DNA from: Liolophura sinensis
Taxonomy: Eukaryota > Mollusca > Polyplacophora > Chitonida > Chitonidae
Direction of reading: 5' to 3'
Length of the DNA: 64,000 bases
Assembly: GCF_032854445.1 (NCBI RefSeq)
Contig: NC_088295.1
Span: 22,121,385-22,185,384 of the forward strand
A program made the translations under genes and the position numbers. Below are positions 1-59,020 of the stretch, piece by piece. Numbering within the stretch: the stretch's first letter is position 1; each line of letters starts with the position of its first letter. The notes beneath the pieces were generated by a model. That model worked only from the letters and a program-made list of their open reading frames with translations. It was not told the origin of the DNA and did not search any database.

Positions 1-202
1 CTCAGTAATCGTCATCAATTTATTATTAAAGAGAACGGATAGATTACTGACTCGCTGCGGGTGATACACAGGTATGATTTTGAGTTAAGCCATTTCTGTC
101 ACCAACAAAGGCGGAATTCCCTGATGAGATGAGCAGCAGGTGTTAACTCAGATCGTCACTTGAAATCGTGCATGAAACACGTTTTCCCGCTGAGAAGGCT
201 TC

Positions 203-209
203 TATAAAA
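203..209 (+). promoter_or_regulatory. TATA box of array gene copy 1
   Basis: TATAAAA lies 78 bases before the ATG, placing transcription start at roughly 230-240. The same box sits exactly 78 bases before the ATG in copies 2-5 (4436, 7761, 11054, 14367) and survives in dead copy 6 (16972). Just upstream, copy 1 alone has TTTTCCCGC, which fits the E2F consensus. Copies 2 and 4 have one more C there, and copies 3 and 5 have a different sequence. Confidence 0.75.
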
Positions 210-280
210 CAAGACTTTTCACAGCCAATTCTTACATTATCTCATCACCGATTGCTGAGATCAGTCACTTCCATACGAGT

Positions 281-1195
281 ATGGACAGTTTCAACGACGA
301 TTCTTTACAAACCACTGCCTCCTCCATGGATTTTACCTTTGAAGAACCTCAATGTTTTACAAGTACACCGCTAAAAGTGGCTCCGGATTTTCTCCCAGAA
401 GCAGCCAACCCCAACCCCAATGGCTTACCACCTCCAAAGCCTACTGCACCTAAACCCAGGACCGTTATCAGACGTTTGACCATGAATGAGATCACGACTG
501 CTTTGTCACAGAATTCGAACACAACAGAACGAAGACTGAGAATATTGAGGTAAACACTTAGTGTATATCAGTAGTTTAAACTGTGAACATTTCTGTTGGG
601 CAAGAGTAGGGAGATTGATCCTTTTGGCTTTTATGACCGTCGATGTACAACCAAACCCAAAAGAACTGGCAGCATGTAAATAAAAGCTTCTGTCTTTTTT
701 CATTTCAGTTTTAAACGACAGAGACTACAAGTACGACTCGATCATCTGCAGAGAAAAACCCTAACCTTGAGCGCTCGAGACGAGGCCATAAAGAGACGTC
801 ATGCAGAGTTACATGATCAGCGCATAAGATTGGCGGCCAACTCCAGCGGAAGTTCCATCGATGACAGCTCTGGCGAGGAAGCCCTAGATACCAAACGTTT
901 GTTGCTGTCATCAGGGCGTACTCTGCCCACCTGGCGTTCTCAGAGACAGTTGGGGAAATTTCGCCGCAAGAGTGTGGTAAGAAGGGCCAGTGACAAGAGA
1001 CTTCGCCGATCACCGTCTGCTCTTAACAGGGCTCCGTCTCTCTGTCGGACGGCCAGGAGCCCCGAACCTGTCCAAATCAGCTTTGTGCAGACAGATCAAT
1101 CCCGCTTGATCAACAAACCTGTGCAGAGAGTGAAAAAGACACCCAGCTTACGGCTGAAGAGATTCGTGCAGAAGAAACTGAAGATGATTCTCTAA
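281..1195 (+). CDS. Array gene copy 1: unrecognised 251-aa basic Ser/Pro-rich protein, two exons
   Basis: CDS is 281-549 joined to 709-1195. The intron 550-708 has a gtaaac donor and a tttcag acceptor, and the split codon makes Ser90. I do not recognise the family. Residues 1-60 are acidic then proline-rich (FTSTPLK at 26-32; a Pro/Lys run at 49-60). Residues 84-131 are highly charged and probably helical. Residues 135-147 are Ser/Asp/Glu-rich. From 160 to the end the protein is strongly basic with proline-directed sites RSPSA (190-194), RSPEP (206-210) and KTPSL (233-237), and ends in a Lys/Arg-rich tail. No signal peptide or membrane segment is seen. The composition suggests a phosphorylated nuclear or nucleic-acid-binding protein, which is inference. 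The start at 281 is the first ATG, 78 bases after the TATA box. This copy alone has Asn at residue 80. Confidence 0.85.
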
Positions 1196-1349
1196 CAGTT
1201 TCCACAGTCCTTTTCAGTAAAGCCAATGTTGTTCAGGGCGTGCTACAAACTGTGCTATGCGGAAAGTGCTTTTCGATTTTTTATGTTTACTACTTTTTAT
1301 GTTAAGAACACGTATACAAGTTATAGATGTATATGCGCTTACGTGAGAG

Positions 1350-1355
1350 AATAAA
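1350..1355 (+). terminator. Poly(A) signal AATAAA of array gene copy 1
   Basis: AATAAA about 155 bases after the stop codon, followed by a GT/T-rich stretch (cacgtgtgtttttctc). The same arrangement is found at 8909, 12202 and 15515. Copy 2 has the weaker ATTAAA at 5584. An orphan copy at 2657 belongs to the unit that lost its gene. Confidence 0.7.
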
Positions 1356-1379
1356 CTCTACAGACGCACGTGTGTTTTT

Positions 1380-4233: not shown

Positions 4234-4513
4234 CTCAGTAATCGTCATCAATTTATTATTAAAGAGAACGGATAGATTACTGACTCGCTGCGGGTGATAC
4301 ACAGGTATGACTTTGAGTTAAGCCATTTCTGTCACCAACAAAGGCGGAATTCCCTGATGAGATGAGCAGCAGGTGTTAACTCAGATCGTCACTTGAAATC
4401 GTGCATGAAACACGTTTCCCCGCTGAGAAGGCTTCTATAAAACAAGACTTTTCACAGCCAATTCTTACATTATCTCATCACCGTTTGCTGAGATCAGTCA
4501 TTTCCATACGAGT

Positions 4514-5429
4514 ATGGACAGTTTCAACGACGATTCTTTACAAACCACTGCCTCCTCCATGGATTTTACCTTTGAAGAACCTCAATGTTTTACAAGTACA
4601 CCGCTAAAAGTGGCTCCGGATTTTCTCCCAGAAGCAGCCAACCCCAACCCCAATGGCTTACCACCTCCAAAGCCTACTGCACCTAAACCCAGGACCGTTA
4701 TCAGACGTTTGACCATGAATGAGATCACGACTGCTCTGTCACAGAATTCGGACACAACAGAACGAAGACTGAGAATATTGAGGTAAACACTTAGTGTATA
4801 TCAGTAGTTTAAACTGTGCACATTTCTGTGGGGCGAGAGTAGGGAGATTAATTCTTTTGGCTTTTATTACCGTCGATGTACAACCAAACCCAAAAGAACT
4901 GGCAGCATGTAAATGAAAGCTTCTGTCTTTTTTTCATTTCAGTTTTAAACGACAGAGACTACAAGTACGACTCGATCATCTGCAGAGAAAAACCCTAACC
5001 TTGAGCGCTCGAGACGAGGCCATCAAGAGACGTCATGCAGAGTTACATGATCAGCGCATAAGATTGGCGGCCAACTCCAGCGGAAGTTCCATCGATGACA
5101 GCTCTGGTGATGAAACCCTAGATACCAGACGTTTGTTGCTGTCACCAGGGCGTACTATGCCCACCTGGCGTTCTCAGAGACAGTTGGGAAAATTTCGTCG
5201 CAACAGTGTGGTAAGAAGGGCCAGTGACAAGAGAGTTCGCCGATCACCGTCTGCTCTTAACAGGGCTCCGTCTCTCTGTCGGACGGCCAGGAGCCCCGAA
5301 CCTGTCCAAATCAGCTTTGTGCAGACAGATAATTCCCGCTTGATCAACAAACCTGTGCAGAGAGTGAAAAAGACACCCAGCTTACGGCTGAAGAGATTCA
5401 TGAAGAAGAAACTGAAGATGATTCTCTAA
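4514..5429 (+). CDS. Array gene copy 2: 251-aa basic protein, two exons
   Basis: CDS is 4514-4782 joined to 4943-5429, with the same intron position and phase as copy 1. It is intact. Compared with copy 1 it differs at N80D, E146D, A148T, K152R, S158P, L162M, K177N, L188V, Q220N, V243M and Q244K. Exon 1 shows only the residue-80 change. Pro158, Asn220 and Met243 are shared with copy 4 but not with 1, 3 or 5. The poly(A) signal is ATTAAA (5584) rather than AATAAA, so 3' processing might be less efficient. The TATA box is at 4436-4442. The function is unknown. Confidence 0.85.
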
Positions 5430-7558
5430 CAGTTTCCACAGTCCTTTTCAGTAAAGCCAATGTTGTTTAGGGCGTGCTACAAACTGTGCTATGCGGAAAG
5501 TGCTTTCCGATTTTTTATGTTTACTACGTTATACGTTAAGAACACGTATACAAGTTATAGATGTATATAGGTTTATGTGAGAGATTAAACTCTACAAACG
5601 CACGTGTGTTTTTCTCTTAATTATGTGTCTTATTCATATTTAGTCACATACAGGCATGGTTACAGAGATTGCAAGGTAAATGAAGAGAGGTTAGGTCATT
5701 TTCATTTCAGCATTTTTTGAAACAATAATTCGTTCTCGAAATGAGGTAAATATAAAAAGTGATCTCCGAAACTGCTACTGTTTCAAGACATTTTAGCGGC
5801 AAGATTTAAAGCAAATATTCTGTCAATATTATTCAACAGAAGTTTTCATGTATTATCTTCTTATCACCATTACAGAGTGAATCCGGCTGTCAAAAACCAC
5901 AACTCATTTGTTATGACACGTTCATTATCAGTAGGAATTCAGCTTTACTGTTAAAACGCTGCAGGAGGAAGACGGTCTTATTCCAACGCAAGCATTCTTA
6001 ACCTGTCACTTCATGGGAACTGTGAAAGTCTATAAGATAAACAGCAGGTATGAACTCATGTCATCCCTGAAATTGTCTCAAGACTTAAAGGAATGAACGA
6101 TATTAGTTTCTTCATCAATCTGATGTATTTAGATTTTAGTAGATGTCACATACAGTATATATACGCGAAAAAGGTATTCTTTTCTGTGTTATACCTATTT
6201 CAGAAATGCTGCATATATTATAATCACATTGTTGTTATAGCATTAAAAATCAAACAGGTCTTTGCGAATTGTCTATATGTCAGCTACCTTTAAATTTTTG
6301 TAAATTGTTTAGTTGTTGGGTTTTACGGGCTAAATCGGGTGTCAGGTACGTCTCAAACTCTCAAGCACCATGATTCATGTTGAATATACTCCTTTAGGTT
6401 CAGCGCTACATATTACAGTAGTAAAAACATCTCTGCAACATCTGACAATACATCTGTTTATTTAGAATTTTATAAGGTAATAACCATTACCACTACCAAT
6501 TAAACTTGCTTTAACGTGAACATAAAGTCTACCACTGAATATACAAAGAAAAAATTGATACAAGATACAGTTGTCACAGAAAAATATGTCAAAAAATTGT
6601 ATACAGTTTTGAAAGCAAAGAAAATGAAATTCAGCATTGGAGACATGGCACTGACGGACAATTTACAACCTCTAGCCATGTTGTCGAGGCCCTAATGAAC
6701 ATGGCCAATCACTAGCGCTGAAACCGTCAGGTTATATTTGGCTGTGAAGTCAAAAAAGCTATCAGCTATCGATTGTCAGGGTGGTTTCTAATAGTGGATA
6801 GACATACATCGATGTAATAAATTGGATTTTGCGGTTAGTTTAAGTTTTAAACTGATACATTGTGGGATACACATTTATGAGCAGGAAACTGAGAACGGTT
6901 CCGTGTGTCACAAAGCCCACACGTTGGACAGGATACTGTCGTAATTTGTCACTGCGAGCTGGCAAGAAAATCAGGCGTTTTTGATTGTTTTTTCTCCTTG
7001 TCACAATGTTTAATATCGATGGTACAGGAGGGCTCCTACGTTTTGTGACGTCGATCAAGATAGCTATAACATGACAAAATGGCCTCTCCAAATGAGTGTC
7101 TAGGTACTGACGATTGTTTGCTGTTTATTTTGTCGAAAAGCTGTGTAGAAATGTTAAAATATTTTTAGAACATTTCTGGAATATTATTTTATTAATTAAT
7201 TCAGCTTGAAACATCTATAAATCCACTTATTATTATTTCTTTTCATTGTGCTTGTCAGGGCTTCCAGAAACCTGAAGATAATCAATGGTCTACCTGGTTT
7301 TCCCCCAACTTATCGCTGACGGCATCGTACGAGTGAAGTATTCTTCAGAATAGCGAGGAACATCAATTTGATCACCAATAAATATTATTTCTTTTAAATT
7401 TCAGTTGATCGCATTATCTTGTCCATGAGGTGGAAGGCAAAACAAGCTGTCAGACTTGCAAGCAGGTCTTGTCTCATTCGAAAGACACTTCGATTAGAGA
7501 TTATCCTCTTTTGCAATCATGGAACAGTATATCTCACTCTGTTCAACATCTAAGACAG
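5430..7558. repeat. Spacer of array unit 2
   Basis: Non-coding spacer with 3' UTR and poly(A) signal at its left end and a transposon-derived block at 6511-7204. The ORF for a 66-aa peptide near 6093 is repeated in units 1-4 but has no coding signature that I can see, and it is destroyed in unit 5. Confidence 0.75.
6511..7204. mobile_element. DNA-transposon remnant embedded in the array unit (unit 2 copy)
   Basis: This block starts with a sequence like the terminal repeat of the element at 41,440-42,479 (ttaacgtgaacataaagtc here). It matches that element along much of its length, through to the shared attaattaattca near the right end. The right terminal repeat itself is not recognisable here. 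Related copies lie at about 9837-10497 and 13123-13808. Shortened ones lie at about 2279-2565 and 3587-3953 in unit 1. Unit 5 lacks it. No transposase is encoded, so it is non-autonomous. Confidence 0.7.
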
Positions 7559-7838
7559 CTCAGTAATCGTCATCAATTTATTATTAAAGAGAACGGATAG
7601 ATTACTGACTCGCTGCGGGTGATACACAGGTATGACTTTGAGTTAAGCCATTTCTGTCACCAACAAAGGTGGAATTCCCTGATGAGATGAGCAGCAGGTG
7701 TTAACTTAGATCGTCACTTGAGATCGTACACAAAACAAAGTGCCCCGCTGAGAAGGCTTCTATAAAACAAGACTTTTCACAGCCAATTCTTACATTATCT
7801 CATCACCGATTGCTGAGATCAGTCACTTCCATACGAGT

Positions 7839-8754
7839 ATGGACAGTTTCAACGACGATTCTTTACAAACCACTGCCTCCTCCATGGATTTTACCTTTGA
7901 AGAACCTCAGTGTTTCACAAGTACACCGCTAAAAGTGGCTCCGGATTTTCTCCCAGAAGCAGCCAACCCCAACCCCAATGGCTTACCACCTCCAAAGCCT
8001 ACTGCACCTAAACCCAGGACCGTTATCAGACGTTTGACCATGAATGAGATCACGACTGCTTTGTCACAGAATTCGGACACAACAGAACGAAGACTGAGAA
8101 TATTGAGGTAAACACTTAGTGTATATCAGTAGTTTAAACTGTGCACATTTCTGTGGGGCGAGAGTAGGGAGATTAATCCTTTTGGCTTTTATTACCGTCG
8201 ATGTACAACCAAACCCAAAAGAACTGGCAGCATGTAAATGAAAGCTTCTGTCTTTTTTTCATTTCAGTTTTAAACGACAGAGACTACAAGTACGACTCGA
8301 TCATCTGCAGAGAAAAACCCTGACCTTGAGCGCTCGAGGCGAGGCCATCAAGAGACGTCATGCAGAGTTACATGATCAGCGCATAAGATTGGCGGCCAAC
8401 TCCAGCGGAAGTTCCATCGATGACAGCTCTGGTGATGAAGCCCCAGATACCAAACGTTTGTTGCTGTCATCAGGGCGTACTCTGCCCACTTGGCGCTCTC
8501 AAAGACAGTTGGGGAAATTTCGCCGCAACAGTGTGGTAAGAAGGGCCAGTCACAAGAGAGTTCGCCGTTCACCGTCTGCTCTTAACAGGGCTCCATCTCT
8601 CTGTCGGACAGCCAATACCCCCGAACCTGTCCAAATCAGCTTTGTGCAGACAGATCAATCCCGCTTGATCAACAAACCTGTGCAGAGAGTGAAAAAGACA
8701 CCCAGCTTACGGCTGAAGAGATTCGTGCAGAAGAAGCTGAAGATGATTCTCTAA
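7839..8754 (+). CDS. Array gene copy 3: 251-aa basic protein, two exons
   Basis: CDS is 7839-8107 joined to 8268-8754; the intron has the same borders as in copy 1. It is intact. Differences from copy 1 are N80D, D114G, E146D, L149P, K177N, D185H, L188V, R206N and S207T. The last two change the RSPEP site to NTPEP, which is still proline-directed. Ser158, Gln220 and Val243 are as in copies 1 and 5. Its proximal promoter is of a second type shared with copy 5 (aaagtgccccgctgag in place of cacgttt-cccgctgag). The TATA box is at 7761 and AATAAA at 8909. The function is unknown. Confidence 0.85.
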
Positions 8755-10851
8755 CAGTTTCCACAGTCCTTTTCAGTAAAGCCAATGTTGTTTAGGGCGT
8801 GCTACAAACTGTGCTATGCGGAAAGTGCTTTCCGATTTTTTATGTTTACTACGTTTTATGTTAAGAACACGTATACAAGTTATAGATGTATATGGGTTTA
8901 TGTGAGAGAATAAACTCTACAAACGCACGTGTGTTTTTCTCTTAATTATGTGTCTTATTCATATTTAGTCACATACAGGCATGGTTACAGAGAATGCAAG
9001 GTAAATGAAGAGAGGTTAGGTCATTTTCATTTCAGCATTTTTTGAAATAATAATTTGTTCTCGAATTGACGTAAATATAAAAAGTGATCTCCGAAACTGC
9101 AACGGTTTCAAGACATTTTAGCGGCAAGATTAAAAGCAAATCTTCTGTCAATGCTATTCAACAGAAGTTTTCATTTTTTATCTTCTTATCACCATTACAG
9201 AGTGAACCCGGCTGTCAAAAACCACAACTCATTTGTTATGACACGTTCATTATCAGTAGGAATTCAGCTTTACTGTTAAAACGCTGCAGGAGGAAGACGG
9301 TCTTATTCCAACGCAAGCATTCTTAACCTGTCACTTCATGGGAACTGTGAAAGTCTATAAGATAAACAGCAGGTATGAACTCATGTCATCCCTGAAATTG
9401 TCTCAAGACTTAAAGGAATGAACGATATTAGTTTCTTCATCAATCTGATGTATTTAGATTTTAGTAGATGTCACATACAGTATATATACGCGAAAAAGGT
9501 ATTCTTTTCTGTGTTATACCTATTTCAGAAATGCTGCATATATTATAATCACATTGTTGGTATAGCATTAAAAATCAAACAGGTCTTTGCGAATTATCTA
9601 TATGTCAGCTACCTTTAAATTTTTGTAAATTGTTTGGTTGTTGGGTTTTACGGGATAAATCGGGTGTCAGGTACGTCTCAAACTCTCAAGCACCATGATT
9701 CATGTTGAATATACTCCTTTAGGTTCAGCGCTACATATTACAGTAGTGAACACATCGCTGCAACATCTGACAATACATCTGTTTATTTAGAATTTTATAA
9801 GGAAATAACCATTACCACAACCAGTTAAACTTGCTTTAACGTGAACATAAAGTCTACCACTATATATACAAAGAAAAAACTGATACAAGATACAGTTGTC
9901 ACAGAAAAATATGTCAAAAAATTGTATACAGTTTTGAAAGCAAAGAAAATGAAATTCAGCATTGGAGACATGGCACTGACGGACAATTTACAACCTCTAG
10001 CCATGTTGTCGAGGCCCTTATGAACATGGCCAATCACTAGCGCTGAAACCGCCAGGTTATATTTGGCTGTGAAGTCAAAAAAGCTATCAGCTCTCGATTG
10101 TCAGGGTGGTTTCTAATAGTGGATAGACATACATCGATGTAATAAATTGGATTTTGCGGTTAGTTTAAGTTTTAAACTGATACATTGTGGGATACTGAAC
10201 TGAGAACGGTTCCGTGTGTCACAAAGCCCACACGTTGGACAGGAAACTGTCGTAATTTGTCAGGGCGAGCTGGCAAGAAAATCAGGCGTTTTTGATTGTT
10301 TTTTCTCCTTGTCACAATGTTTAATATCGATGGTTTTGTGACGTCGATCAAGATAGCTATAACATGACAAAATGGCCTCTCCAAATGAGTGTCTAGGTAC
10401 TGACGACTGTTTGCTGTTTATTTTGTCGAAAAGCTGTGTAGAATTGTTAAAATATTTTTAGAACATTTCCGGAATACTATTTTATTAATTAATTCAGCTT
10501 GAAATATCTATAAATCCAATTATTATTATTTCTTTTCATTGTGCTTGTCAGGGCTTCCAGAAACCTGAAGATAATCAATGGTCTACCTGGTTTATCCCCA
10601 ACTTATCGCTGACGGCATCGTACGAGTGAAGTATTCTTCAGAATAGCGAGGAACATCAATTTGATCACCAATAAATATTATTTCTTTTAAATTTCAGTTG
10701 ATCGCATTATCTTGTCCATGAGGTGGAAGGCAAAACAAGCTGTCAGACTTGCAAGCAGGTCTTGTCTCATTCGAAAGACACTTCGATTAGAGATTATCCT
10801 CTTTTGCAATCATGGAACAGTATATCTCACTCTGTTCAACATCTAAGACAG
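8755..10851. repeat. Spacer of array unit 3
   Basis: Non-coding spacer like that of unit 2, with the transposon-derived block at about 9837-10497. That block carries two small deletions relative to unit 2 (around 10196 and 10333). I see no gene. Confidence 0.75.
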
Positions 10852-11131
10852 CTCAGTAATTGTCATCAATTTATTATTAAAGAGAACGGATAGATTACTG
10901 ACTCGCTGCGGGTGATACACAGGTATGACTTTGAGTTAAGCCATTTCTGTCACCAACAAAGGTGGAATTCCCTGATGAGATGAGCAGCAGGTGTTAACTT
11001 AGATCGTCACTTGAAATCGTGCATGAAACACGTTTCCCCGCTGAGAAGGCTTCTATAAAACAAGACTTTTCACAGCCAATTCTTACATTATCTCATCACC
11101 GTTTGCTGTGATCAGTCACTTCCATACGAGT

Positions 11132-12047
11132 ATGGACAGTTTCAACGACGATTCTTTACAAACCACTGCCTCCTCCATGGATTTTACCTTTGAAGAACCT
11201 CAATGTTTTACAAGTACACCGCTAAAAGTGGCTCCGGATTTTCTCCCAGAAGCAGCCAACCCCAACCCCAATGGCTTACCACCTCCAAAGCCTACTGCAC
11301 CTAAACCCAGGACCGTTATCAGACGTTTGACCATGAATGAGATCACGACTGCTTTGTCACAGAATTCGGACACAACAGAACGAAGACTGAGAATATTGAG
11401 GTAAACACTTAGGGTATATCAATAGTTTAAACTGTGCACATTTCTGTGGGGCGAGAGTAGGGAGATTAATCCTTTTGGCTTTTATTACCGTCGATGTACA
11501 ACCAAACCCAAAACAACACGCAGCATGTAAATGAAAGCTTCTGTCTTTTTTTCATTTCAGTTTTAAACGACAGAGGCTACAAGTACGACTCGATCATCTG
11601 CAGAGAAAAACCCTGACCTTGAGCGCTCGAGGCGAGGCCACCAAGAGACGTCATGCAGAGTTACATGATCAGCGCATAAGATTGGCGGCCAACTCCAGCG
11701 GAAGTTCCATCGATGACAGCTCTGGTGATGAAGCCCTAGATACCAAACGTTTGTTGCTGTCACCAGGGCGTACTCTGCCCACTTGGCGTTCTCAGAGACA
11801 ATTGGGAAAATTTCGTCGCAACAGTGTGGTAAGAAGGGCCAGTCACAAGAGAGTTCGCCGATCACCGTCCGCTCTTAACAGGGCTCCGTCTCTCTGTCGG
11901 ACGGCCAGGAGCCCCGAACCTGTCCAAATCAGCTTTGTGCAGACAGATAATTCCCGCTTGATCAACAAACCTGTGCAGAGAGTGAAAAAGACACCCAGCT
12001 TACGGCTGAAGAGATTCATGCAGAAGAAGCTGAAGATGATTCTCTAA
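11132..12047 (+). CDS. Array gene copy 4: 251-aa basic protein, two exons
   Basis: CDS is 11132-11400 joined to 11561-12047. An in-frame ATG 24 bases upstream (11108) exists because this copy lacks the stop seen in the others (tgtgatcag for tgagatcag). The downstream ATG is kept since it is the one conserved in all copies. Differences from copy 1 are N80D, D114G, I117T, E146D, S158P, K177N, D185H, L188V, Q220N and V243M. It shares Pro158, Asn220 and Met243 with copy 2. The TATA box is at 11054 and AATAAA at 12202. The function is unknown. Confidence 0.85.
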
Positions 12048-14164
12048 CAGTTTCCACAGTCCTTTTCAGTAAAGCCAATGTTGTTTAGGGCGTGCTACAA
12101 ACTGTGCTATGCGGAAAGTGCTTTCCGATTTTTTATGTTTACTACGTTTTATGTTAAGAACACGTATACAAGTTATAGATGTATATGGGTTTATGTGAGA
12201 GAATAAACTCTACAAACGCACGTGTGTTTTTCTCTTAATTATGTGTCTTATTCATATTTAGTCACATACAGGCATGGTTACAGAGAATGCAAGGTAAATG
12301 AAGAGAGGTTAGGTCATTTTCATTTCAGCATTTTTTCAAACAATAATTCGTTCTCGAATTGACGTAAATATAAAAAGTGATCTCCGAAACTGCTACGGTT
12401 TCAAGACATTTTAGCGGCAAGATTAAAAGCAAATATTCTGTCAATGTTATTTAACAGAAGTTTTCATTTTTTATCTTCTTATCCCCATTACAGAGTGAAC
12501 CCGGCTGTCAAAAACCACAACTCATTTGTTATGACACGTTCATTATCAGTAGGAATACAGCTTTACTGTTAAAACGCTGCAGGAGGAAGACGGTCTTATT
12601 CCAACGCAAGCATTCTTAACCTGTCACTAAATGGGAACTGTGAAAGTCTATAAGATAAACAGCAGGTATGAACTCATGTCATCCCTGAAATTGTCTCAAG
12701 ACTTAAAGGAATGAACGATATTAGTTTCTTCATCAATCTGATGTATTTAGATTTTAGTAGATGTCACATACAGTATATATACGCGAAAAAGGTATTCTTT
12801 TCTGTGTTATACCTATTTCAGAAATGCTGCATATATTATAATCACATTGTTGGTATAGCATTAAAAATCAAACAGGTCTTTGCGAATTATCTATATGTCA
12901 GCTACCTTTAAATTTTTGTAAATTGTTTAGTTGTTGGGTTTTACGGGTGTCAGGTACGTCTCAAGCTCTCAAGCACCATGATTCATGTTGAATATACTCC
13001 TTTAGGTTCAGCGCTACATATTACAGTAGTAAAAACATCTCTGCAACATCTGACAATACATCTGTTTATTTAGAATTTTATAAGGTAATAACCATTACCA
13101 CAACCAGTTAAACTTGCTTTAACGTGAACATAAAGACTACCACTGTATATACAAAGAAAAAATTGATACAAGATACAGTTGTCACAGAAAAATATGTCAA
13201 AAAATTGTATACAGTTTTGAAAGCAAAGAAAATGAAATTCAGCATTGGAGACATGGCACTGACGGACAATTTACAACCTCTAGCCATGTTGTCGAGGCCC
13301 TAATGAACATGGCCAATCACTAGCGCTGAAACCGTCAGGTTATATTTGGCTGTGAAGTCAAAAAAGCTATCAGCTATCGATTGTCAGGGTGGTTTCTAAT
13401 AGTGGATAGACATACATCGATGTAATAAATTGGATTTTGCGGTTAGTTTAAGTTTTAAACTGATACATTGTGGGATACACATTTATGAGCAGGGAACTGA
13501 GAACGGTTCCGTGTGTCACAAAGCCCACACGTTGGACAGGATACTGTCGTAATTTGTCACTGCGAGCTGGCAAGAAAATCAGGCGTTTTTGATTGTTTTT
13601 TCTCCTTGTCACAATGTTTAATATCGATGGTACAGGAGGGCTCCTACGTTTTGTGACGTCGATCAAGATAGCTATAACATGACAAAATGGCCTCTCCAAA
13701 TGAGTGTCTAGGTACTGACGATTGTTTGCTGTTTATTTTGTCGAAAAACTGTGTAGAAATGTTAAAATATTTTTAGAACATTTCCGGAATACTATTTTAT
13801 TAATTAATTCAGCTTGAAATATCTATAAATCCAATTATTATTATTTCTTTTCATTGTGCTTGTCAGGGCTTCCAGAAACCTGAAGATAATCAATGGTCTA
13901 CCTGGTTTATCCCCAACTTATCGCTGACGGCATCGTACGAGTGAAGTATTCTTCAGAATAGCGAGGACATCAATTTGATCACCAATAAATATTATTTCTT
14001 TTAAATTTCAGTTGATCGCATTATCTTGTCCATGAGGTGGAACGCAAAACAAGCTGTCAGACTTGCAAGCAGGTCTTGTCTCATTCGAAAGACACTTCGA
14101 TTAGAGATTATCCTCTTTTGCAATCATGGAAAGTATATCTCACTCTGTTCAACATCTAAGACAG
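12048..14164. repeat. Spacer of array unit 4
   Basis: Non-coding spacer like that of unit 2, with the transposon-derived block at about 13123-13808. A short deletion near 12945 removes part of a motif present in the other units. I see no gene. Confidence 0.75.
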
Positions 14165-14444
14165 CTCAGTAATTGTCATCAATTTATTATTACAGAGAAC
14201 GGATAGATTACTGACTCGCTGCGGGTGATACACAGGTATGACTTTGAGTTAAGCCATTTCTGTCACCAACAAAGGCGGAATTCCCTGATGAGATGAGCAG
14301 CAGGTGTTAACTCAAATGGTCATTTGAGATCGTACACGAAACAAAGTGCCCCGCTGAGAAGGCTTCTATAAAACAAGACTTTTCACAGCCAATTCTTACA
14401 TTATCTCATCACCGATTGCTGAGATCAGTCACTTCCATACGAGT

Positions 14445-15360
14445 ATGGACAGTTTCAACGACGATTCTTTACAAACCACTGCCTCCTCCATGGATTTTAC
14501 CTTTGAAGAACCTCAGTGTTTCACAAGTACACCGCTAAAAGTGGCTCCGGATTTTCTCCCAGAAGCAGCCAACCCCAACCCCAATGGCTTACCACCTCCA
14601 AAGCCTACTGCACCTAAACCCAGGACCGTTATCAGACGTTTGACCATGAATGAGATCACGACTGCTTTGTCACAGAATTCGGACACAACAGAACGAAGAC
14701 TGAGAATATTGAGGTAAACACTTAGTGTACATCAATAGTTTAAACTGTGCACATTTCTGTGGGGCAAGAGTAGGGAGATTAATCCTTTTGGCTTTTATTA
14801 CCGTCGATGTACAACCAAACCCAAAAGAACTGGCAGCATGTAAATGAAAGCTTCTGTCTTTTTTTCATTTCAGTTTTAAACGACAGAGACTACAAGTACG
14901 ACTCGATCATCTGCAGAGAAAAACCCTGACCTTGAGCGCTCGAGGCGAGGCCATCAAGAGACGTCATGCAGAGTTACAAGATCAGCGCATAAGATTGGCG
15001 GCCAACTCCAGCGGAAGTTCCATCGATGACAGATCTGGTGATGAAGCCCCAGATACCAAACGTTTGTTGCTGTCATCAGGGCGTACTCTGCCCACCTGGC
15101 GCTCTCAAAGACAGTTGGGGAAATTTCGCCGCAAGAGTGTGGTAAGAAGGGCCAGTGACAAGAGAGTTCGCCGATCACCGTCCGCTCTTAACAGGGCTCC
15201 ATCTCTCTGTCGGACGGCCAGGAGCCCCGAACCTGTCCAAATCAGCTTTGTGCAGACAGATCAATCCCGCTTGATCAACAAACCTGTGCAGAGAGTGAAA
15301 AAGACACCCAGCTTACGGCTGAAGAGATTCGTGCAGAAGAAGCTGAAGATGATTCTCTAA
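14445..15360 (+). CDS. Array gene copy 5: 251-aa basic protein, two exons
   Basis: CDS is 14445-14713 joined to 14874-15360. It is intact. Differences from copy 1 are N80D, D114G, H125Q, S143R, E146D, L149P and L188V. It resembles copy 3 in Pro149, Ser158, Gln220 and Val243 and in its promoter type. The TATA box is at 14367 and AATAAA at 15515. It is the last intact copy, and its spacer diverges sharply from the other units after about 16035. The function is unknown. Confidence 0.85.
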
Positions 15361-16751
15361 CAGTTTCCACAGTCCTTTTCAGTAAAGCCAATGTTGTTCA
15401 GGGCGTGCTACAAACTGTGCTATGCGGAAAGTGCTTTCCGATTTTTTATGTTTACTACGTTTTATGTTAAGAACACGTATACAAGTTATAGACGTATATG
15501 GATTTATGTGAGAGAATAAACTCTACAAACGCACGTGTGTTTTTCTCTTAATTATGTGTCATATTCATATTTAGTCACATACAGGCATGGTTACAGAGAA
15601 TGCAAGGTAAATGAAGAGAGGTTAGGTCATTTTCATTTCCGCATTTTTTGAAACAATGATTCGTTCTCGAATTGACGTAAATATAAAAAGTGATCTCCGA
15701 AACTGCTACGGTTTCAAGACATTTTAGCGGCAAGATTAAAAGCAAATCTTCTGTCAGTGTTATTCAACAGAAGTTTTCATTTATTATCTTCTTATCATCA
15801 TTACAGAGTGAATCCGGCTGTCAAAAACCACAACTCATTTGTTATGACACGTTCATTATCAGTAGGAATACAGCTTTACTGGTAAAACGCTGCAGGAGGA
15901 AGACGGTCTTATTCCAACGCAAGCATTCTTAACCTGTCACTTCATGGGAACTGTGAAAGTCTATAAGATAAACAGCAGGTATGAACTCATGTCATCCCTG
16001 AAAGTGTCTCAAGACTTAAAGGAATGAACGAAATTAGAGTCTTTATTTACCTGCTTTATTCAGATTTTAGTAGATGTCATATATGTTATATATATGCCAA
16101 AGGCTATTTTTTCCTGTTCCATATCCACTTATTAATTATAATGCCTATAATATAATTAAATTCTTACCATTGGAAAAGTAAATAGCTTTACACAGAGAAA
16201 ACTACCTGAATATTTTTTGTAAATTTTCTCGTTTGTGGGTTTTACGGGCTAATTCGGGTGCCAGGTACGTCTCAAGCTCTCAAACAATGCTTAATGTTGA
16301 ATATTTATGTTTTACCGCTACATATTACAGTAGTAAACACATCTCTGCAAATGGCTTTAGTTGACCTTGACTTTGTAGGTATATAAATATCTACCACTCA
16401 AGTTTTTATTATTTCTTTTCGTCGTGCTTGTCAAGGCTGCCAGAAACCTGAAGATAATCGTGTGAATCACCCATGAAGGGTCTACCTGGTCCTTTACCCC
16501 CAGCTTAACGCTGACGGTGTCGTAAAGGGGAAGTATTCTTCAGAACATCCAGGAACACCAATATAATAACAAAATAAATATTATTTCTTTTAAGTTTTAA
16601 TTTTTTGCCTTGTCCTTGTCTATGAGGTGGAAGGCAAAACAAATTGTCGGACAAGTATATCTTGTCTGCTTCAAAAGGCATTACGATTAGAGATTATCCC
16701 CTTTTCCAATCATAGAACAATAGATCTCACTCTATTCAACATCCAAGACAG
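15361..16751. repeat. Diverged spacer of array unit 5, without the transposon block
   Basis: From about 16035 this spacer differs from those of units 1-4. Where they carry the 0.7-kb transposon-derived block it has only a short AT-rich join (about 16350-16410) before the shared flank ttattatttcttttc. It is therefore either a pre-insertion site or a deletion. I see no gene. Confidence 0.7.
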
Positions 16752-16988
16752 CTCAGTAATCGTCATCAACTCACTATTAAAAAGAAGGTAGATATTTCGG
16801 ACTCGCTGCGGGTGATACACACAATATGACTTTGAGTTAAACCAGTTCTGCCACCAGCAAAGGTGGAATTCCCTGATGAGATGAACAGCAGGTGTTAAAT
16901 CAGACCGTCACTTGAAACAATGCTAAACTTACAGAAAATTGCATCAAACCGTGCCCTACTGAGAGGGCTTCTATAAAACAAGACTTTT

Positions 16989-18100
16989 TATAGTTGGTGG
17001 ATTAAAATCGGACCTGCTGTCACCAGATTTTGACATATTTGTCAGCAAGTATGACATTGGGATGTTGTCTGAAACGAAACTAAATGAGCAGGACGTTATT
17101 AACATTGAGAACTTTAATATACTGTCGCAAACGTCAGGAACCAGGAAAAAATATTCGCAAGTTATTGCAATGTTGGTTAAGGAAAATATTGCCATGTATT
17201 TTACTGGCATTTTACTGAGTCCCAGGATGGATTTAGGAAAGGCTATACGTGCATTGACAATATTTTTGTATCACATCATGCTATCGAATATTACTTGCGC
17301 ACGAAAAAAAAAGATGTATTGCTCATACATAGAATTTTCAAAGGCATTCGATACTGTCTGGAGAGGGGGACTGTGGTTCAAACTACTGAACGAGGGACTG
17401 GGAGGGAAATGTTTTAATTTGTTACGAAATATGTACCAGGCTATTAAGACTTGCATCAAAACAAAGAATTCCAAATCTGAATTCTTCCTATGTGAAGTTG
17501 GTGTGAGACAAGGAGAGAATCTTTCGCATTACTTTTTTCCCTCTACTTGAATGATCCAGAAGAGTTCATGACACATAACAGAGTTGTAGGTTTATCTCAG
17601 CTGTCTGAAGATATGACAGCCCATCACGAGGTGTTTATACATCTACTAACGTTATTGCATGCAGATGACACCATAATAATGTCAGAAACAGATAGAGGCC
17701 TTCAAATCGCACTGGATGCGTTCGAAAACTACTGTAATTTATGGGAACTAGACGTCAACACAAAGAAGACCAAAATCATGATATCCTGCAAACGTTTGCC
17801 AAAATCTTTACTATTGCTTTACTTCAATGGTTGTATGATTGAAGTCATTACCGAATATGTCTACTTAGGTATAGTGGTGAAAAATACACTAATCTACTCT
17901 GCAGGTAAAAAACACATTTTGTCTCAAGGCACGAAAGCTTTGTTTGGCCTCATTTGGTAAATGAATAGAGGTTATGTCATTTTCAATTCGTCGAAAAATT
18001 AAAACCCTACCTATTATTTTGTATGGCTGTGAAACATGGGGTTTTGAAAAATTAAATGAAATCGAGTCATTTAACCTACAATTTTGTAAACGTATGTTTC
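16989..18100 (+). mobile_element. Dead LINE (non-LTR retrotransposon) fragment replacing exon 1 of array copy 6
   Basis: The fragment begins in the middle of the array promoter (after the TATA box at 16972) and ends just before the exon-2 acceptor. Translations show an endonuclease-like start (GMLSETKLNEQD near 17060), then reverse-transcriptase blocks: SKAFDTVWRGGLWFKLLNEG (near 17335), VGVRQGENLS (near 17500) and the active-site ADD in LLHADDTIIMSET (near 17655). A C-terminal ILYGCETWGFEKL motif follows near 18020. Several frameshifts and a large internal deletion between endonuclease and reverse transcriptase make it non-functional. I cannot name the clade with confidence. Confidence 0.85.
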
Positions 18101-18111
18101 TTTAATTTTAG

Positions 18112-18592
18112 TTTTAAACGAGATAAACTGCGAGTGCGACTCGATCATCTTCAGAAAAAACACTGACCTTGAGTCCTCGAGACGAGGCCATCAAGGCACG
18201 CCACGCAGAGTTACATGATCAGCGCATAAGATTGGCGGCCAACTCCAGCGGAAGTTCCATCGATGACAGCTCTGGTGATGAAGCCCCAGATACCAAACGT
18301 TTGTTGCTGTCATCAGGGCGTACTCTGCCCACCTGGCGCTCTCAGAGCAGTTGGGGAAATTTCGCCGCAAGAGTGTGGTAAGAAGGGCCAGTCACAGGAG
18401 TTCGCTGATCACCGCCTGCTCTTAATAGGGCTCCATCTCTGTCGGACGGCCAGGAGCCCCGAACCTGTCCAAATCAGCTTTGTGCAGACAGATAATTCCC
18501 GCTTGATCAACAAACCTGTGCAGAGGGTGAAAAAGACACCCAGCTTACGGCTGAAGAGATTCGTGCAGAAGAAGCTGAAGATGATTCTCTAA
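18112..18592 (+). pseudogene. Array gene copy 6: exon 2 only, frameshifted
   Basis: The sequence matches exon 2 of the intact copies from its tttaatttta-g acceptor to the stop codon. It has a 1-base deletion near 18348, 2-base deletions near 18398 and 18438, and other changes, so the frame is broken. Exon 1 and the intron are gone, replaced by the LINE fragment. It carries Asn at the site equivalent to residue 220 but Ser158 and Val243, mixing the two copy types. Downstream, the poly(A) signal has been replaced by a long TA repeat. Confidence 0.9.
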
Positions 18593-18717
18593 CAGTTTCC
18601 ACGGTCCTTTTCAGTAACGCCAATGTTGTTTAGGGCGTGCTACAAACTGTGCTATGCGGAAAGTGCTTTCCGATTTTTTATGTTTACTACGTTTTATGTT
18701 AAGTACACGTATACATG

Positions 18718-18718
<1 letters not shown>

Positions 18719-18770
<52 letters not shown>
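18719..18770. repeat. (TA)n microsatellite
   Basis: About 26 uninterrupted TA dinucleotides replace the AATAAA region that follows the gene in the other array units. Confidence 0.95.
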
Positions 18771-52300: not shown

Positions 52301-52378
52301 AATTCGCGACTTTCCAGTTCAGCGCCTCCTAGCGGATGGTCGTACACGGACGACTGTCATGGCCGCGTATGGGGTCAT
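52301..52378 (+). repeat. Left terminal inverted repeat
   Basis: This is 78 bases, matching the reverse complement of 58004-58082. The middle (52337-52352) differs, and the two flanking blocks are identical. The right partner is one base longer. Confidence 0.92.
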
Positions 52379-52379
52379 C

Positions 52380-52836
52380 GGGCCGTCTCTAAGTTTTTTC
52401 TGTTATCAGGCCAGTTTCATTCCAAAGCCGCAAGAAAATCAAGGTAAAGTGAATTAACAGGACAAACTGTTTATAATGATTCACTGAATGGTTGTGAGAA
52501 GGGTATAGGACTTGAAATAGTACTGTTTACACAAAATACAACCAGCTAGCTTAGCCTCAACAACAACAACACAATTTACAATGTTCTAACCTTCGCAGTA
52601 CTTTGGCGTTTGTAAGATGGAAAGTCCCTCCCGAGAACTGCTTTGTAGTGTAATACGCCTTACTTTAATCCCGTAGAGACTTGTTTATGTATGCACATGT
52701 TGTAAGCTTTTAAAACATAATAGGCCTATCAGCTGTAATTTAGTTTATGGATAGGTAGACTTATTCATTTAAATGTGAATGAATACATGTATGATTATAT
52801 TCATTTTTCAATGATATTCTAATTTTGTTTAAACAG
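52380..52836 (+). other. 5' UTR exon end and first intron of the YqaJ gene
   Basis: A consensus donor (aatcaag/gtaaag, intron start near 52443) lies 65 bases inside the left terminal repeat. A good acceptor (tttgtttaaacag, AG at 52835-52836) precedes the exon carrying the ATG. So the first exon seems to include terminal-repeat sequence. This is inferred from splice signals. Confidence 0.5.
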
Positions 52837-52849
52837 TTCGCCTAGAGCC

Positions 52850-54701
52850 ATGAATTGCAAGAGAAAGAAACAAACTGTGGCTGAAGATATCAGTGATGCA
52901 AAAACCAGAAAGGAGGACATTCGCCTTTATTGTTTATGTAAACAATTAGATGATCCTGATAGAACAATGATCCAGTGTGATTTTTGTGACGAATGGTTCC
53001 ATCCTGCCTGTGTTGATCTGGAAGAGGGTGAAGTTAATGATGTTGGAAGATGGTACTGCCCACCATGTACAGATGTTATGGCACAAAATCCATCACTGTC
53101 GCGTAAAGGTATAGAAAACGGGGTCATTTTACTTCTACTTACTTTTGGGCACATTAATATTATATTGACTGTTTATTGTAATGACTTAATTGATCTGACA
53201 GTGTTAATATGTTAGGCTATTTTCAGTCAGCTGTTACAATCATATTTGTAAAGTAACACGTCAGGACAGAAAAAGTTAACCCAGTCATGTGGTAATTTGT
53301 CAAAACTGCGTTTCAGGTTTTCTTGGGTTTCAAGGGAGAGTAGCACCGAAAGAGGGATGGGGAGAAGAATTTTTGTTGGAGGACATCGATGAGTCTGTCA
53401 TTCAAGTAGAAACCAAAAGACATCGTGTTGAAGGCTGGAACCTGTTTCGAGAAGGTCGTGTTACTGGACTGAGCAGCAATAAAAACAGAAATTATGTATA
53501 TTTCCGTAGTCAGTGTCAGGCATCCATGAGACAGCTGTCCTATAATGTGTTTATCTGTTTCAAGGGCAGTCGAAGGCTTAAGTGGTCAACCTGTTCGTGC
53601 CCTGCTGGAATCGATGGCCAGGGTAAGCATCTTGTGGCAACTTTGTATTGTTTGATAGATCTGTACAGACTAGGGATAAACAAAATCCCAGATGCTAAGA
53701 CATGCACACAAAAACTTCAAATGTGGCATGTCCGAAAACCTGTGACAGACGAACCACTGCTTTTTTCTGACATAAACTTTGTTAAGCATGACCCAGAGAG
53801 ACCAGTAAAAGGGGACCTTGGTTGTAGTGTGAAGCAACATAATCCTGTACCTGAGTTTGCAAGCACTGTGACACAGGTAAAAATTCAGAAACTTGTTAAC
53901 TTATATGATTCCAGTTGTATTAAGTTACCAGTCATAGACACCATCAGGACCAATCAATGTATTCCAGTGTTGCCTAAACAGCAAATGGATGGAAGCCTTC
54001 ATTCTGAACTTTTTGAATTAATGAATGGAACAGAATATAACTTTAGTGTGGATGATTACACAACTAAATTGACTGCATCAGAGAAACAACACTACAGTTC
54101 CATTGTGGAAGTAAATATTGAAACATCTAGATGTATTGAAAAGAAAACTCGATTACAGAGTAAGAGTAAGTTTTGGTTTGACCAGCGCCAACATAGAATA
54201 ACGGCATCCAACTTTGGGACTTTCTGTAGACTAAAATCATGTACTAATCCAATAACAACTTTCAATAGAAAGCAGAAGTTTTTCACGTGCAGAAGTGTCC
54301 ACCATGGTGTAGATTATGAGTCAGCTGCATTTGCCAAGTATAGTGAAGTCCAACCCTGTGAAAGTTGCTCAGCAGGTTTAATAATAAATCCCAAAATACC
54401 ATATTTAGGTGTTAGTCCTGATAAAATTGTGCTTACCAACAGTGAATTGAAACTTGTAGAAGTTAAGTGCCCTTACAGTGTGTTTCAAAAGAAAGTCAAA
54501 ATTTGTCAACAAATTAAGGAAAATAATTTCTACTTAAAATATGTTGATGGAGAGGTGAAACTGTCTGAGACTCATGATTATTTTTATCAAATTCAAGGTC
54601 AGCTTAATATTACTGGTGTAAATATTTGTGATATGGTGGTGTTTGTGCCTCCAGATGATATTGTTATTGTTTCCATTAAAAAAAGACAAACACTTTTTTG
54701 A
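52850..54701 (+). CDS. PHD finger - SWIM-like - YqaJ nuclease protein of the transposon
   Basis: CDS is 52850-53108 joined to 53317-54701 (547 aa). The intron splits Gly87 and has a gtatag donor and tttcag acceptor. A C4HC3 PHD finger is at 28-73 (C28, C30, C43, C46, H51, C54, C70, C73). A SWIM-like finger is at 179-191 (C179-S-C181 then GKH191), where the third Cys is Gly189. The YqaJ (lambda-exonuclease-like) domain is at about 370-530, with RITAS (380-384), E421, D455 in SPDK, E468-V-K470 and QIQGQ (511-515). These make up the usual metal-dependent nuclease site, and none is missing. In the family such proteins degrade or process DNA ends. Its role in transposition is inference. PHD fingers usually read histone H3 tails, so chromatin targeting is possible. 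A poly(A) signal is at 55080. Confidence 0.9.
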
Positions 54702-55079
54702 AAACAAAATGCTCCCAAAGCTATCTGATATTTATTTCCATCATTTGTTGCCTAGCTTTGTTGATCGCCTCCAATACACTCATTTGTAGAAATATTAAGC
54801 ATTTTCAATTGTCATGTCAGAATTACATATTGTGGAGCAATGTTTTTCAAGAATGTCCAGTCATCATTTACTCTATTTACATGCACATGTGTATGACTGG
54901 AGAAATATGCCTACATACCATAGATTCGTTAATCACATTTCCATTTGTTATTTTCCCATGATACTAATAATGAAGCATTTTCAATCAAATTGTAAGAGAG
55001 TTTGAAGGAACTTCATCTATTATATAGAGCAAGTGATGATACATGTATATGTCTCCTTTGAGTATGATGAGTTTCCTTA

Positions 55080-55085
55080 AATAAA
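55080..55085 (+). terminator. Poly(A) signal of the YqaJ gene
   Basis: AATAAA about 380 bases after the stop codon, inside the gap between the two convergent genes. Confidence 0.5.
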
Positions 55086-55231
55086 AGTAAAGCCAAGTGA
55101 AACAAAATTTGTTCGCAGTGTCACATGATATGTAACAATTCCATCCCATGCCAATCCTGAATTGTTGTAATTCACTTCTTGAAGCCAGCCAATGTATTAT
55201 GAAATAATTTTTTTTTACTTATTATCAACTT

Positions 55232-55400
55232 ACATTTAGTTGATTGATAATGCTGTACTTAAGAATTTTTTACTCATATGAGGGCTCGTGAAGTGTATGG
55301 TTGAAGAAAACCATAGTTTATTGGAGTAAACCATCGACCTTCGCCAAGTACCTGATAACCTACTGACTCGAAGCTGCAGTTAAAGCCCTTTGATGTTCGA
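55232..55400 (-). mobile_element. Old SINE-like relic between the two transposon genes
   Basis: It contains tgctgtacttaagaattttt and gagtaaaccatcgaccttcg, resembling the fragment at 47128. If it is a later insertion it shows that the transposon has been resident for some time. A minus-strand AATAAA inside it (55317-55322) could serve the transposase gene. Confidence 0.4.
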
Positions 55401-55469
55401 GCAAACGAGACGCAATTCTAATCTTTAAAACCAGTTTACTTTAGACAAAGTGCTAACTGATCTAAGTTA

Positions 55470-56963
55470 CTAACCTGTAAAGTTTGACAAATGGCCACAC
55501 GCAAGCCAAACTTTCTCTATCATTGGACACAAAGATGTAGGAACAATGTTCCGAATGATCTCAAATTCCTTAACTTTTCTCACTGCTCGTTCTACATGAA
55601 CTCGCACAGCTGCAACTCCCCTTGAGAATTTTAACTGTTCATCTGTGAACTGCTGTTGTCCATGCAGAAATGTTGGAATAATAAGAGAAGCCCCCCTTCT
55701 TTCAACATCTTCGCGAATGTCAAATCCCCGATCAACCATGAGGCTATCACCATCTTCCAGTAAGTCTAGGAGCCCACAGTGACGAATAATCTTTTTGTCA
55801 GAACATCTCCCAGCATATAATGGCGAAATAAAAGTAAGTTGACCTACCGGAGAAATTGCAATGAGTCCCTTCGCAGTGTTGTGGTGTTTGTAAGATGAGA
55901 AAGTCTCTCTTTGACAGTCAGATGCAGATGGTTGTTCAATGAATAGTTCTGTACAGTCCACAATAGCACGTGTTGTTGAATAATGTTCTCTAAAGCATGC
56001 TGGCATGGTCTTTCACACTTGTTTAGCTTTTGGCCAGATTGGTAATGATCGAAATCTATCTGCTAAAAAAATAATCCATGTGTTGACAATTTTAGATACA
56101 TGACCCTCAGATATGCTATACAGATCACCAATTAACCTTTCTTGTAGTCCTTTACGAAGACGCACTAGTGTTATGAAGAGCTCTTCCATTGGTGAGAGTG
56201 ATCTAGATGGTCCACGTTTCTTTAATAAGTCATACGGTGTACCAGATGATGTGTTCTCTGTGCCCACATAATATAAAAAATTACATTCTGGCTGAAGAAA
56301 CTGAAAAAAACATGATAAAGATATATAAGACTGAAATCCTGTATAGTACTTTATGTCACTGTCAGAATTGCAAAATCTGAGCAAAGTAAACTTTTCTTCA
56401 TAGCGCAGTGTCATCAGATTTAAATTGGTCTGTAAAACAGAGGCTTTATCAGGTGAGACGCTAGGTTCATAATCTTCTAAACTGTCATCCCCACTACTGC
56501 TGCTCTCCAAATATCTTCTCAAAGTTGTAGGATATATAGTATACATAGCCCCATCAGTGTATTGGCGGGAATAAGAATGCTCCTCCACAGAAAACTGTTG
56601 AAGACCTGTAGCTGCTTTGTTCTCCTTGTTCTCGGATGCTACTGAGGAAATCTGTTTCTTAATCTTTCTCCTAGAATGCTGAGTGGAGGTGCCTTTACAC
56701 CAATGAAAAACTGTTGGAATGGCATCCTTCACAAGACGACGTCTTATGCCTTGGTGTTTTGGATAACAATCCTCTGTAAAATGTAAAGAGCACACACAAG
56801 TGTGTCTGTTTATGGCAAAATCTTTACCAATGTCTCTCCTTATGTTCACAATCCATTTTTTTACCAAATCTTTGTCCGAAGGGAAACTGTGAAATGACAA
56901 ATGTTTACAGCTCTCAAGTCTAGTGTCACTTGAACACAAAGGCACACAGCAATGATGAGGCAT
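55470..56963 (-). pseudogene. THAP-domain DDE transposase (HARBI1-like) interrupted by one stop codon
   Basis: One reading frame of 495 codons is cut once by an in-frame TGA (56015-56013, codon 317). Upstream, residues 1-316 hold a THAP zinc finger (C5, C10, C58, H61; AIPTVF at 81-86), which in this class binds the terminal repeats, and a helix-turn-helix region (about 250-310). Downstream, the DDE_Tnp_4 catalytic domain has D334 (in DCTE), D409 (in VDRGF) and E456 (in HVERAV). No other lesion is visible. The TGA could have come from CGA by CpG decay. The minus-strand acceptor ttgcttccag stands 12 bases before the ATG. Readthrough, or an internal start at 56006, could only yield partial proteins. 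The function is integration and excision, probably lost in this copy. Confidence 0.9.
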
Positions 56964-56978
56964 TTTAGATTCTTTCTG

Positions 56979-58003
56979 GAAGCAAACAGAAGAATAAGTT
57001 GTCAGTATAAGTGTAGATCTAGCATCCCTTCGTCTCTTTTATACCATTCTTTATGTACAAGAACATGAATAAGGTTTATTAAGTCCAAAATATTTCAAAA
57101 ACATTGAATACCAATAGTAAACTATACATTTTAACAGGCCTATATTTAGCTGTGAACCTAAATGAACACCTAGATTGCACATGCATTCAAAACATGCTAA
57201 ATGGATATATTTTTCTTAGAGCAATTTATGAACTAGTCAGAAATTACTACCTATGTATTTTATGCACTATGCATTACAAAGTAACCTTAAAATTTAAATT
57301 CAAAATTCCCCAACCAAGACTACATTGGTTAATGTAATTCTGAAATCAAGCAACACATTCATGAGATTTACGGAAGCAAACAGCTCCAGATATGTTGGAT
57401 TGATCATGAGCGACATGTGCCACAGTTCACGCAGACATTAGAATTGTTGTCAATCCTCTGCCCTCTGTAAATGCCTATGAGCTAAAGTTTTCACGGCAAT
57501 CATGTCTGTTCGTGAAATAATCCCATTTTCCTAGTGTATAGGATTTATTACCTTATCAAGATGGTGGTAGACCCTGAAAGTGTTACTGCCATAGTCCATG
57601 TTTGTCAAGGTCAATATAAGATTAAGTTAGATAATGTGTAAGAGCGTGAGGTTCGCCAGGGAAGACGAAATTACTGTAGACAGCGGTAAAAGTCGCTTAC
57701 TGACAATCCGACACATTTGGGGATGTACTTTCTGTTAGTTTCACAGCTGTGTTGCTCGATCTCAGAGTGTTACATTCTGCATCTAAGAAACATTTACTGA
57801 ACATGAAAGTGTTGTTGTTGTTTCAACGAGTCCGCTGCATCTACGTTGTCGAAGTATTGTATTTTAACACTAAATATGAGTTTCATGCAAAACACACGTG
57901 AGTATATAGATACATGGTTATTTCTAATCCCTCACCTCAATCACGCAGATGTCATGAAAAGAAAAAGACGACAGCTTTTGTGGAAAACAGGCGAAACTGC
58001 TAC
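56979..58003 (-). other. First intron and 5' UTR exon of the transposase gene
   Basis: Reading the minus strand, a donor (attgag/gtgagg, exon end near 57936) lies about 70 bases inside the right terminal repeat. An acceptor lies at about 56976. This mirrors the plus-strand gene at the other end. I see no further ORF of note in the intron. Confidence 0.5.
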
Positions 58004-58082
58004 ATGACCCCATACGCGGCCATGACATTCCTCCGTGTGCGATTCACCCGCTAGGAGGCGCTGAACTGGAAAGGGGCGAATT
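58004..58082 (-). repeat. Right terminal inverted repeat
   Basis: This is 79 bases and the reverse-complement partner of 52301-52378. The spacer between the conserved blocks differs by several substitutions and one indel, which suggests that the insertion is not very recent or that this part of the repeat is not constrained. Confidence 0.92.
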
Positions 58083-59020
58083 GCAGCGTGTCTCATAATA
58101 TACATTTTTTTTTTTGGCAAAATTATCATGTATTCAAATATATGTACAAGCAATATATATCAACGGTATCAAACGTGAATTTTTTTTTGGTATCTGGCGT
58201 TATATAACAAAGACATAAATGCAAAAATCCATGGACTTGTCTTCTCGACAAATCTCAGATGTCACTGAATATCTTTCTTATGTCATACATGTAATGTGTG
58301 TAATCCAATCAAAATCTTATTTGATCACCTGTTGTTGGATCCCAACTAGCAGCTCAGTGATGGTTGAGCGAGGCCACGTGTTATCACAGTTGATCTCACG
58401 ATCCTGGCCCTAAACACGCAACTCTGCATATGTGCATGTATATATGCATACTCAAGGGGGATCGAGACAGCCCATTTTTACTTTGACTCTTGTCTTTCCT
58501 TTAATGCTTCTTTTTCTTATTACTACCATGTAAGTTTTCTAAAATGAGTACATGTTTATGTGAGCCATTTTATGAAGTAACAATATTTAAATATATGACC
58601 CATATGTTTGCAGTTACACGTGTTACAGGTAGTGAGAGATAAATTTGTTTTTATATTGTTACATACAGCTGAACGCAGTGTTTTCGTGAATTTCTTATAA
58701 ACTGTCAAGTCCATTGTCGACCAATGGCTTGAAAGTCCATTGTCGACCAATGGCTTGAAAGTCCATATTTCACATCGCTCTTCAGCACAACAGTGAGAAC
58801 GGTAGTTGCATTACGGTATTATTATATGACGCCTGCACACCAAATATTCATAGTTGTTTCTTTTTCTGCGATTGACTGCAATGGAAGCATGCATGGGCGC
58901 TTAATTCTGATCTGGAAGTGTGAGGGGGGGGGGGAGTGTTTCGTTTCAGTATACATCTGAAGTATAGAATTCAATAAACACCTCATGCTTCGTCACGGTT
59001 TTTCATTGTATGAAATCAAT
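58083..59020. other. No gene seen
   Basis: Spacer with a 27-base tandem duplication at about 58708-58765 (unit contains cattgtcgaccaatggctt) and a poly-G run near 58924. Confidence 0.6.

Follow-up and report, generated by a model that had tools for sequence, protein, structure and literature searches.

A young ISL2EU-type transposon family of the chiton Liolophura sinensis with a PHD finger exon ahead of its YqaJ nuclease

A stretch of 64,000 nucleotides from the chiton Liolophura sinensis (assembly GCF_032854445.1, contig NC_088295.1, positions 22,121,385 to 22,185,384 of the forward strand), here called the window, holds a whole DNA transposon of 5.8 kb at window positions 52301-58082. Its terminal inverted repeats (TIRs) of about 87 bp lie at the same coordinates as in a preliminary description made from the letters alone. 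The outer parts of the repeats (52301-52338 and 58045-58082) are 92% complementary and the inner parts (52340-52389 and 57993-58042) 84%, and the element ends begin with TCGC. Within these ends, a transposase gene on the minus strand is convergent with a two-exon PHD-SWIM-YqaJ gene on the plus strand, the first exon of which encodes a PHD finger and the second a YqaJ nuclease preceded by a SWIM-like motif (Table 1). Both TIR pairing and Pfam agree with the preliminary description in placing both terminal repeats and both genes within 5.8 kb, and in calling the transposase a THAP-DDE protein, to which Pfam adds HTH_Tnp_4. With a probability of about 0.8, we read the element as a copy of a young, low-copy ISL2EU-type family which carries PHD-SWIM-YqaJ and THAP-HTH-DDE genes and which would transpose by the mechanism outlined below.

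The whole genome assembly of 609,464,459 bases in 632 contigs was searched for related copies, and all match counts are lower bounds. By using the left 120 bases of the element as query, at least 25 matches were obtained. Twenty-four of them pair into 12 two-ended copies, and the remaining one comes from one end of an older, related element, the sister described below. Besides the window copy there are at least 11 further copies, ten near full length and one internally deleted, and both genes are present in ten of them. Copy sizes range from 5.68 to 5.80 kb in 11 copies, and the deleted copy (L006), which lacks the PHD-intron region, measures 2.5 kb. Between the 500-base flanks there are no more than four matches, all of them short and due to dispersed repeats. 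That the two genes arrived by separate insertions and adjoin by chance, as the preliminary description had allowed for, is refuted by these copies and deserves practically no credence, since 11 places hold the same unit complete with its two ends and two genes and the twelfth copy is internally deleted. The mean pairwise divergence is only 0.485% (66 pairs among the 12 copies), so the family is young. Judged from its sequences, it is a low-copy, recently active, cut-and-paste family. The earlier observation is confirmed, and is stronger than was claimed there.

Table 1. Parts of the element, in window coordinates
Feature	Position	Strand	Evidence or remark
Left AATT, target-site context	52301..52304		On the A|AT|T reading, the AT duplication is 52302-52303
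Left TIR	52304..52389		Inverted-repeat pairing; same end in 12/12 copies
ORF1 (open reading frame 1) exon 1, PHD finger (Pfam PHD 52931-53068)	52850..53108	+	Pfam 6.2e-11; open in 11/11 copies having the exon; homologous exon in sister
Predicted intron GTATAG...TTTCAG, 208 bp	53109..53316	+	Same borders in 11/11 copies
ORF1 exon 2: SWIM-like motif 53592-53630, YqaJ nuclease 54174-54620	53317..54701	+	Pfam YqaJ 5e-14; PDB profile matches
Transposase gene: THAP 56706-56951, HTH_Tnp_4 56049-56201, DDE_Tnp_4 55482-55961	55470..56963	-	Pfam 2.4e-18, 5.6e-14 and 1.6e-39, respectively
Right TIR	57993..58079		Inverted-repeat pairing; both ends present in 12 copies
Right AATT, target-site context	58079..58082		AT duplication is 58080-58081

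AATT was found at both ends in all 12 copies, with different surroundings. One copy (L005) is inserted in a dispersed repeat, and its two flanks joined around a single AATT were used as an empty-site query. Among the 40 matches listed, two correspond to the L005 flanks themselves; of the remaining 38, all but one cross the junction (37). Six of these empty sites were fetched and aligned, and each has a single tetranucleotide. Another copy (L002) lies inside an array whose units read ACACAATTTGGG or ACACAATCTGGG. From these two cases, insertion duplicates the target site. The ends of a related locus, L014, read CAAT|ACACC...GGTGT|ATTG, and favour the 2-bp AT duplication that PMC4482050 gives for ISL2EU.

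The assignment to ISL2EU rests on the domains, partner and target site described in PMC4482050; the DDE relatives looked at were YqaJ-paired ones from this same genome. In that 2015 survey, ISL2EU is a group of the PHIS (Harbinger-like) superfamily with a THAP-HTH-DDE transposase, a YqaJ second ORF and the target A|AT|T. Its elements have inverted repeats of 6-259 bp, ends that usually start with GG, and an average length of 4840 bp. The element shares the transposase type, the YqaJ second ORF, inverted repeats within the given range and an animal host, and the AATT at its ends fits A|AT|T, though a 4-bp duplication gives the same letters. The domains bear out the link to ISL2EU that the preliminary description had drawn. 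Several points weigh against the assignment. The ends start with TCGC rather than GG, which is a tendency and not a rule, and the element is 5.8 kb long against the 4840-bp average. The empty-site tetranucleotide of L005 is AATT in only two of the six cases, AACT in three and ATTT in one, and within the family a 4-bp AATT and a 2-bp AT duplication (A|AT|T) cannot be told apart by their letters. The name PIF/Harbinger-type given previously holds for the Harbinger-like superfamily, whose common DDE_Tnp_4 domain is present. Membership in PIF/Harbinger proper, which PMC4482050 characterizes by a Myb/SANT partner and TWA duplication, is highly improbable, because the partner is YqaJ, Pfam reported no Myb/SANT on the four frames scanned, and each of the 12 copies is bordered by AATT and not by TWA.

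The PHD exon sets the element apart from ISL2EU transposons as described in PMC4482050. Its frame is open in all 11 copies that hold it, and exons 1 and 2 splice in phase in silico, with identical borders of the 208-bp intron in all 11 copies having the region. We further found, at C8:3635893-3642285 (L012, L032), an older decayed sister whose parts follow one another in the same order and whose two ends both have AATT. Its PHD exon, which contains stops, lies in the same place and is 56% identical in amino acids over the whole exon from start codon to splice point. The ratio of nonsynonymous to synonymous substitution rates (dN/dS) between family and sister is 0.47 (0.25-0.90) for the PHD exon, 0.21 for the middle part and 0.44 for YqaJ; within the transposase it is 0.34 for THAP and 0.38 for the remainder. 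Beyond family and sister, the closest PHD, at C2:18.67 and 18.70 Mb, is just 43% identical (L033 3753-4148, C2:18.665 Mb, with the second match 30 kb off), and around C2:18.67 Mb no YqaJ and a DDE match at chance level only were found. The sequence comparison indicates that the PHD exon is element DNA, and we infer a spliced PHD-YqaJ fusion protein. The fusion proposed in the preliminary description rests on the predicted in-phase intron, with PHD and YqaJ on separate exons rather than in one frame.

Two points speak against this reading. The splice is a prediction from DNA, and the dN/dS of the finger alone, 0.86 (bootstrap 0.32-2.75), is not different from neutral, a value inflated by a frameshifted stretch of the sister. 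Both would also suit a captured host exon, or a separate small gene riding along outside the YqaJ protein, and so would the locus L021, where PHD and YqaJ are in separate open frames. We consider such an origin unlikely, given the in-phase splice sites and uninterrupted frame of all 11 copies having the exon, the same exon in the same place of the sister and the distance to the closest other PHD. A PHD exon spliced to the YqaJ exon is the reading followed below.

Both genes are damaged in the window copy. In the transposase gene, an in-frame TGA lies at 56013-56015 and 15 bp are deleted close to the gene end; in ORF1, one inserted base at about 54678 shifts the frame of the nuclease tail. In addition, two of the 11 copies, the window copy among them, have Gly instead of Cys as the third SWIM zinc ligand, the Cys codon being retained in 9 of 11. 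Seven of the 11 copies have no interruption of ORF1 through YqaJ, and the other four have a frameshift or stop. Five of 11 copies have an open transposase frame of 502 aa, and one more, internally deleted, has an open frame of 488 aa. Both frames are open, without a deletion of the 488-aa type, in four of 11 copies. Of these four, one resembles the window copy in its Cys-to-Gly change and its ORF1 tail, and two lack a single residue of ORF1. The window copy would need proteins encoded by other copies. Thirty bases of the transposase gene (55868-55897) recur at 87% in the left arm ahead of ORF1 (52590-52619), perhaps left over from an older rearrangement.

The PHD-SWIM-YqaJ composition named in the preliminary description stands for PHD and YqaJ, which Pfam recognises, and less so for SWIM, which is below threshold and broken in the window copy. 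Pfam SWIM was not reported there at E<=1, and on a sibling with the full motif it reached 16 bits, under the 19.6 cut-off. Two further loci, L013 and L020, likewise have SWIM-type CxC...CxH motifs ahead of YqaJ, so the SWIM-like part is probably ordinary. A profile built from seven YqaJ sequences of the genome was searched against the PDB and matched LHK-Exo (6.3e-19), mimivirus R354 (1.8e-13) and lambda exonuclease (4.3e-07). The nuclease motif SPD...EVKCP is present. The AlphaFold model of the YqaJ part is usable in its core alone (mean pLDDT, predicted local distance difference test, 55.5), and a fold search with this weak model agrees with the profile matches. The likeness to these three enzymes lies in the YqaJ core with its SPD...EVK motif; they differ in their phage, bacterial or giant-virus setting, and lambda-type exonucleases and R354 are not known to have a PHD or SWIM. 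No relative of the ORF1 protein was found among the IMG/VR viral contigs.

The closest solved structures to the PHD finger in the PDB are the PHD fingers of PHF2 (7e-12), PHF8 and JHDM1D (KDM7 type), with E-values of about 1e-11. The Tyr, Met and Trp residues which form the trimethyl-lysine cage are common to the element and these relatives in 5 of 5 alignments shown. However, the PY tyrosine of PHF2 and PHF8, which sits near the cage, is replaced by Asp in the element, which counts against the same function. PHD fingers of PHF2, PHF8 and JHDM1D are fused to JmjC demethylases. AlphaFold gave no usable model of the PHD exon alone (pLDDT 42). From these residues, a reader of histone H3 trimethylated at lysine 4 (H3K4me3) is plausible, no more.

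A total of 40 YqaJ loci were obtained from merged genome searches, 13 of them with a PHD match within 10 kb. The PHD search scored the best 150 of 176 candidates, and its model missed the decayed sister. The 13 loci comprise the 11 family copies, L021 and one on C3. The last, at C3:11.37 Mb with the PHD match 7 kb from the YqaJ match, could not be tied to a single element and was rejected. Twenty-nine of the 40 YqaJ loci are outside the full-length family copies, and only L021 among them has a tied PHD match, so PHD is not a general requirement. At L021 (C11:112 kb), a YqaJ piece which BLAST aligned at 49% over 49 aa and Pfam did not recognise is followed after about 300 bases by PHD (Pfam 1.6e-07). 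At L024 (C8:9.225 Mb), a sub-threshold PHD (22.9 bits vs 24) comes after a stretch resembling a YqaJ tail by eye only. PHD and YqaJ thus appear together in two putative arrangements, PHD before YqaJ in the family and sister, and after it in L021 and L024.

Other YqaJ-DDE pairs in the genome were convergent in 9 of 10 cases by eye, as in the element. In the ISL2EU-like locus L014 (125-5837), SWIM-like pieces (188-1045, plus strand) and YqaJ (3591-4184, plus strand) enclose DDE (1829-2362, minus strand); either the transposase gene is nested within the other gene or it is a later insertion.

Elsewhere in the window, positions 1-18735 are occupied by a direct-repeat array with units of about 3.3 kb (spacings 3325, 3293 and 3313). 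Five units have an Arg/Ser-rich open frame of about 170 aa, and no Pfam family was above cut-off in the one scanned. Reverse transcriptase fragments (RVT_1) at 16963-17960 are likely a decayed LINE (long interspersed nuclear element). A perfect 26-bp tandem repeat of 2.3 copies lies to the right of the element at 58707-58766.

In the proposed mechanism, exons 1 and 2 would be spliced into a single protein, the THAP domain would recognise the element ends, and the DDE domain would cut the element and paste it into A|AT|T. Trimming of DNA ends, or help with repair at the donor or target, may fall to the YqaJ protein with its likeness to lambda exonuclease. The PHD finger, being closest to H3K4me3 readers, may recruit the nuclease to active chromatin, perhaps together with the transposase. 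Transposition would then be coupled to end processing and chromatin recognition. The functions of second ORFs in the superfamily were called unknown in the 2015 survey (PMC4482050). A young family with open copies and a likely chromatin reader on the YqaJ protein makes this function testable, and raises the question whether the second protein works on DNA ends, on the choice of target, or on both.

ISL2EU with THAP-HTH-DDE and YqaJ was already known, as also described in PMC9179366, and the difference here is the PHD exon on the YqaJ gene. We found no description of PHD with YqaJ or ISL2EU in the literature searched, with Repbase, Dfam and subscription papers outside the search, and where YqaJ and PHD finger were co-mentioned, the passages were unrelated. 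By its predicted domains, PHD on an ISL2EU YqaJ protein is a combination that we did not find described. A similar layout is seen in RAGL transposons, also of molluscs, in which a DDE gene is convergent with a PHD-bearing partner gene (PMC7204232). Their kelch partner has no nuclease, the duplication is 5 bp and the transposase is of another family. Membership in RAGL was rejected, because by Pfam the element has DDE_Tnp_4 and YqaJ, not a RAG1-like enzyme and a kelch-PHD partner; RAGL is an unrelated parallel. The PHD finger of RAG2 reads methylated H3K4 (PMC7204232), and chromatin reading by the element, if true, would parallel it. We offer as a speculation, more doubtful than not, that ISL2EU transposons took up PHD on the YqaJ protein in two arrangements, possibly twice independently, with PHD guiding nuclease and transposase to chromatin methylated at H3K4, much as in RAG2 but in a transposon superfamily unrelated to it.

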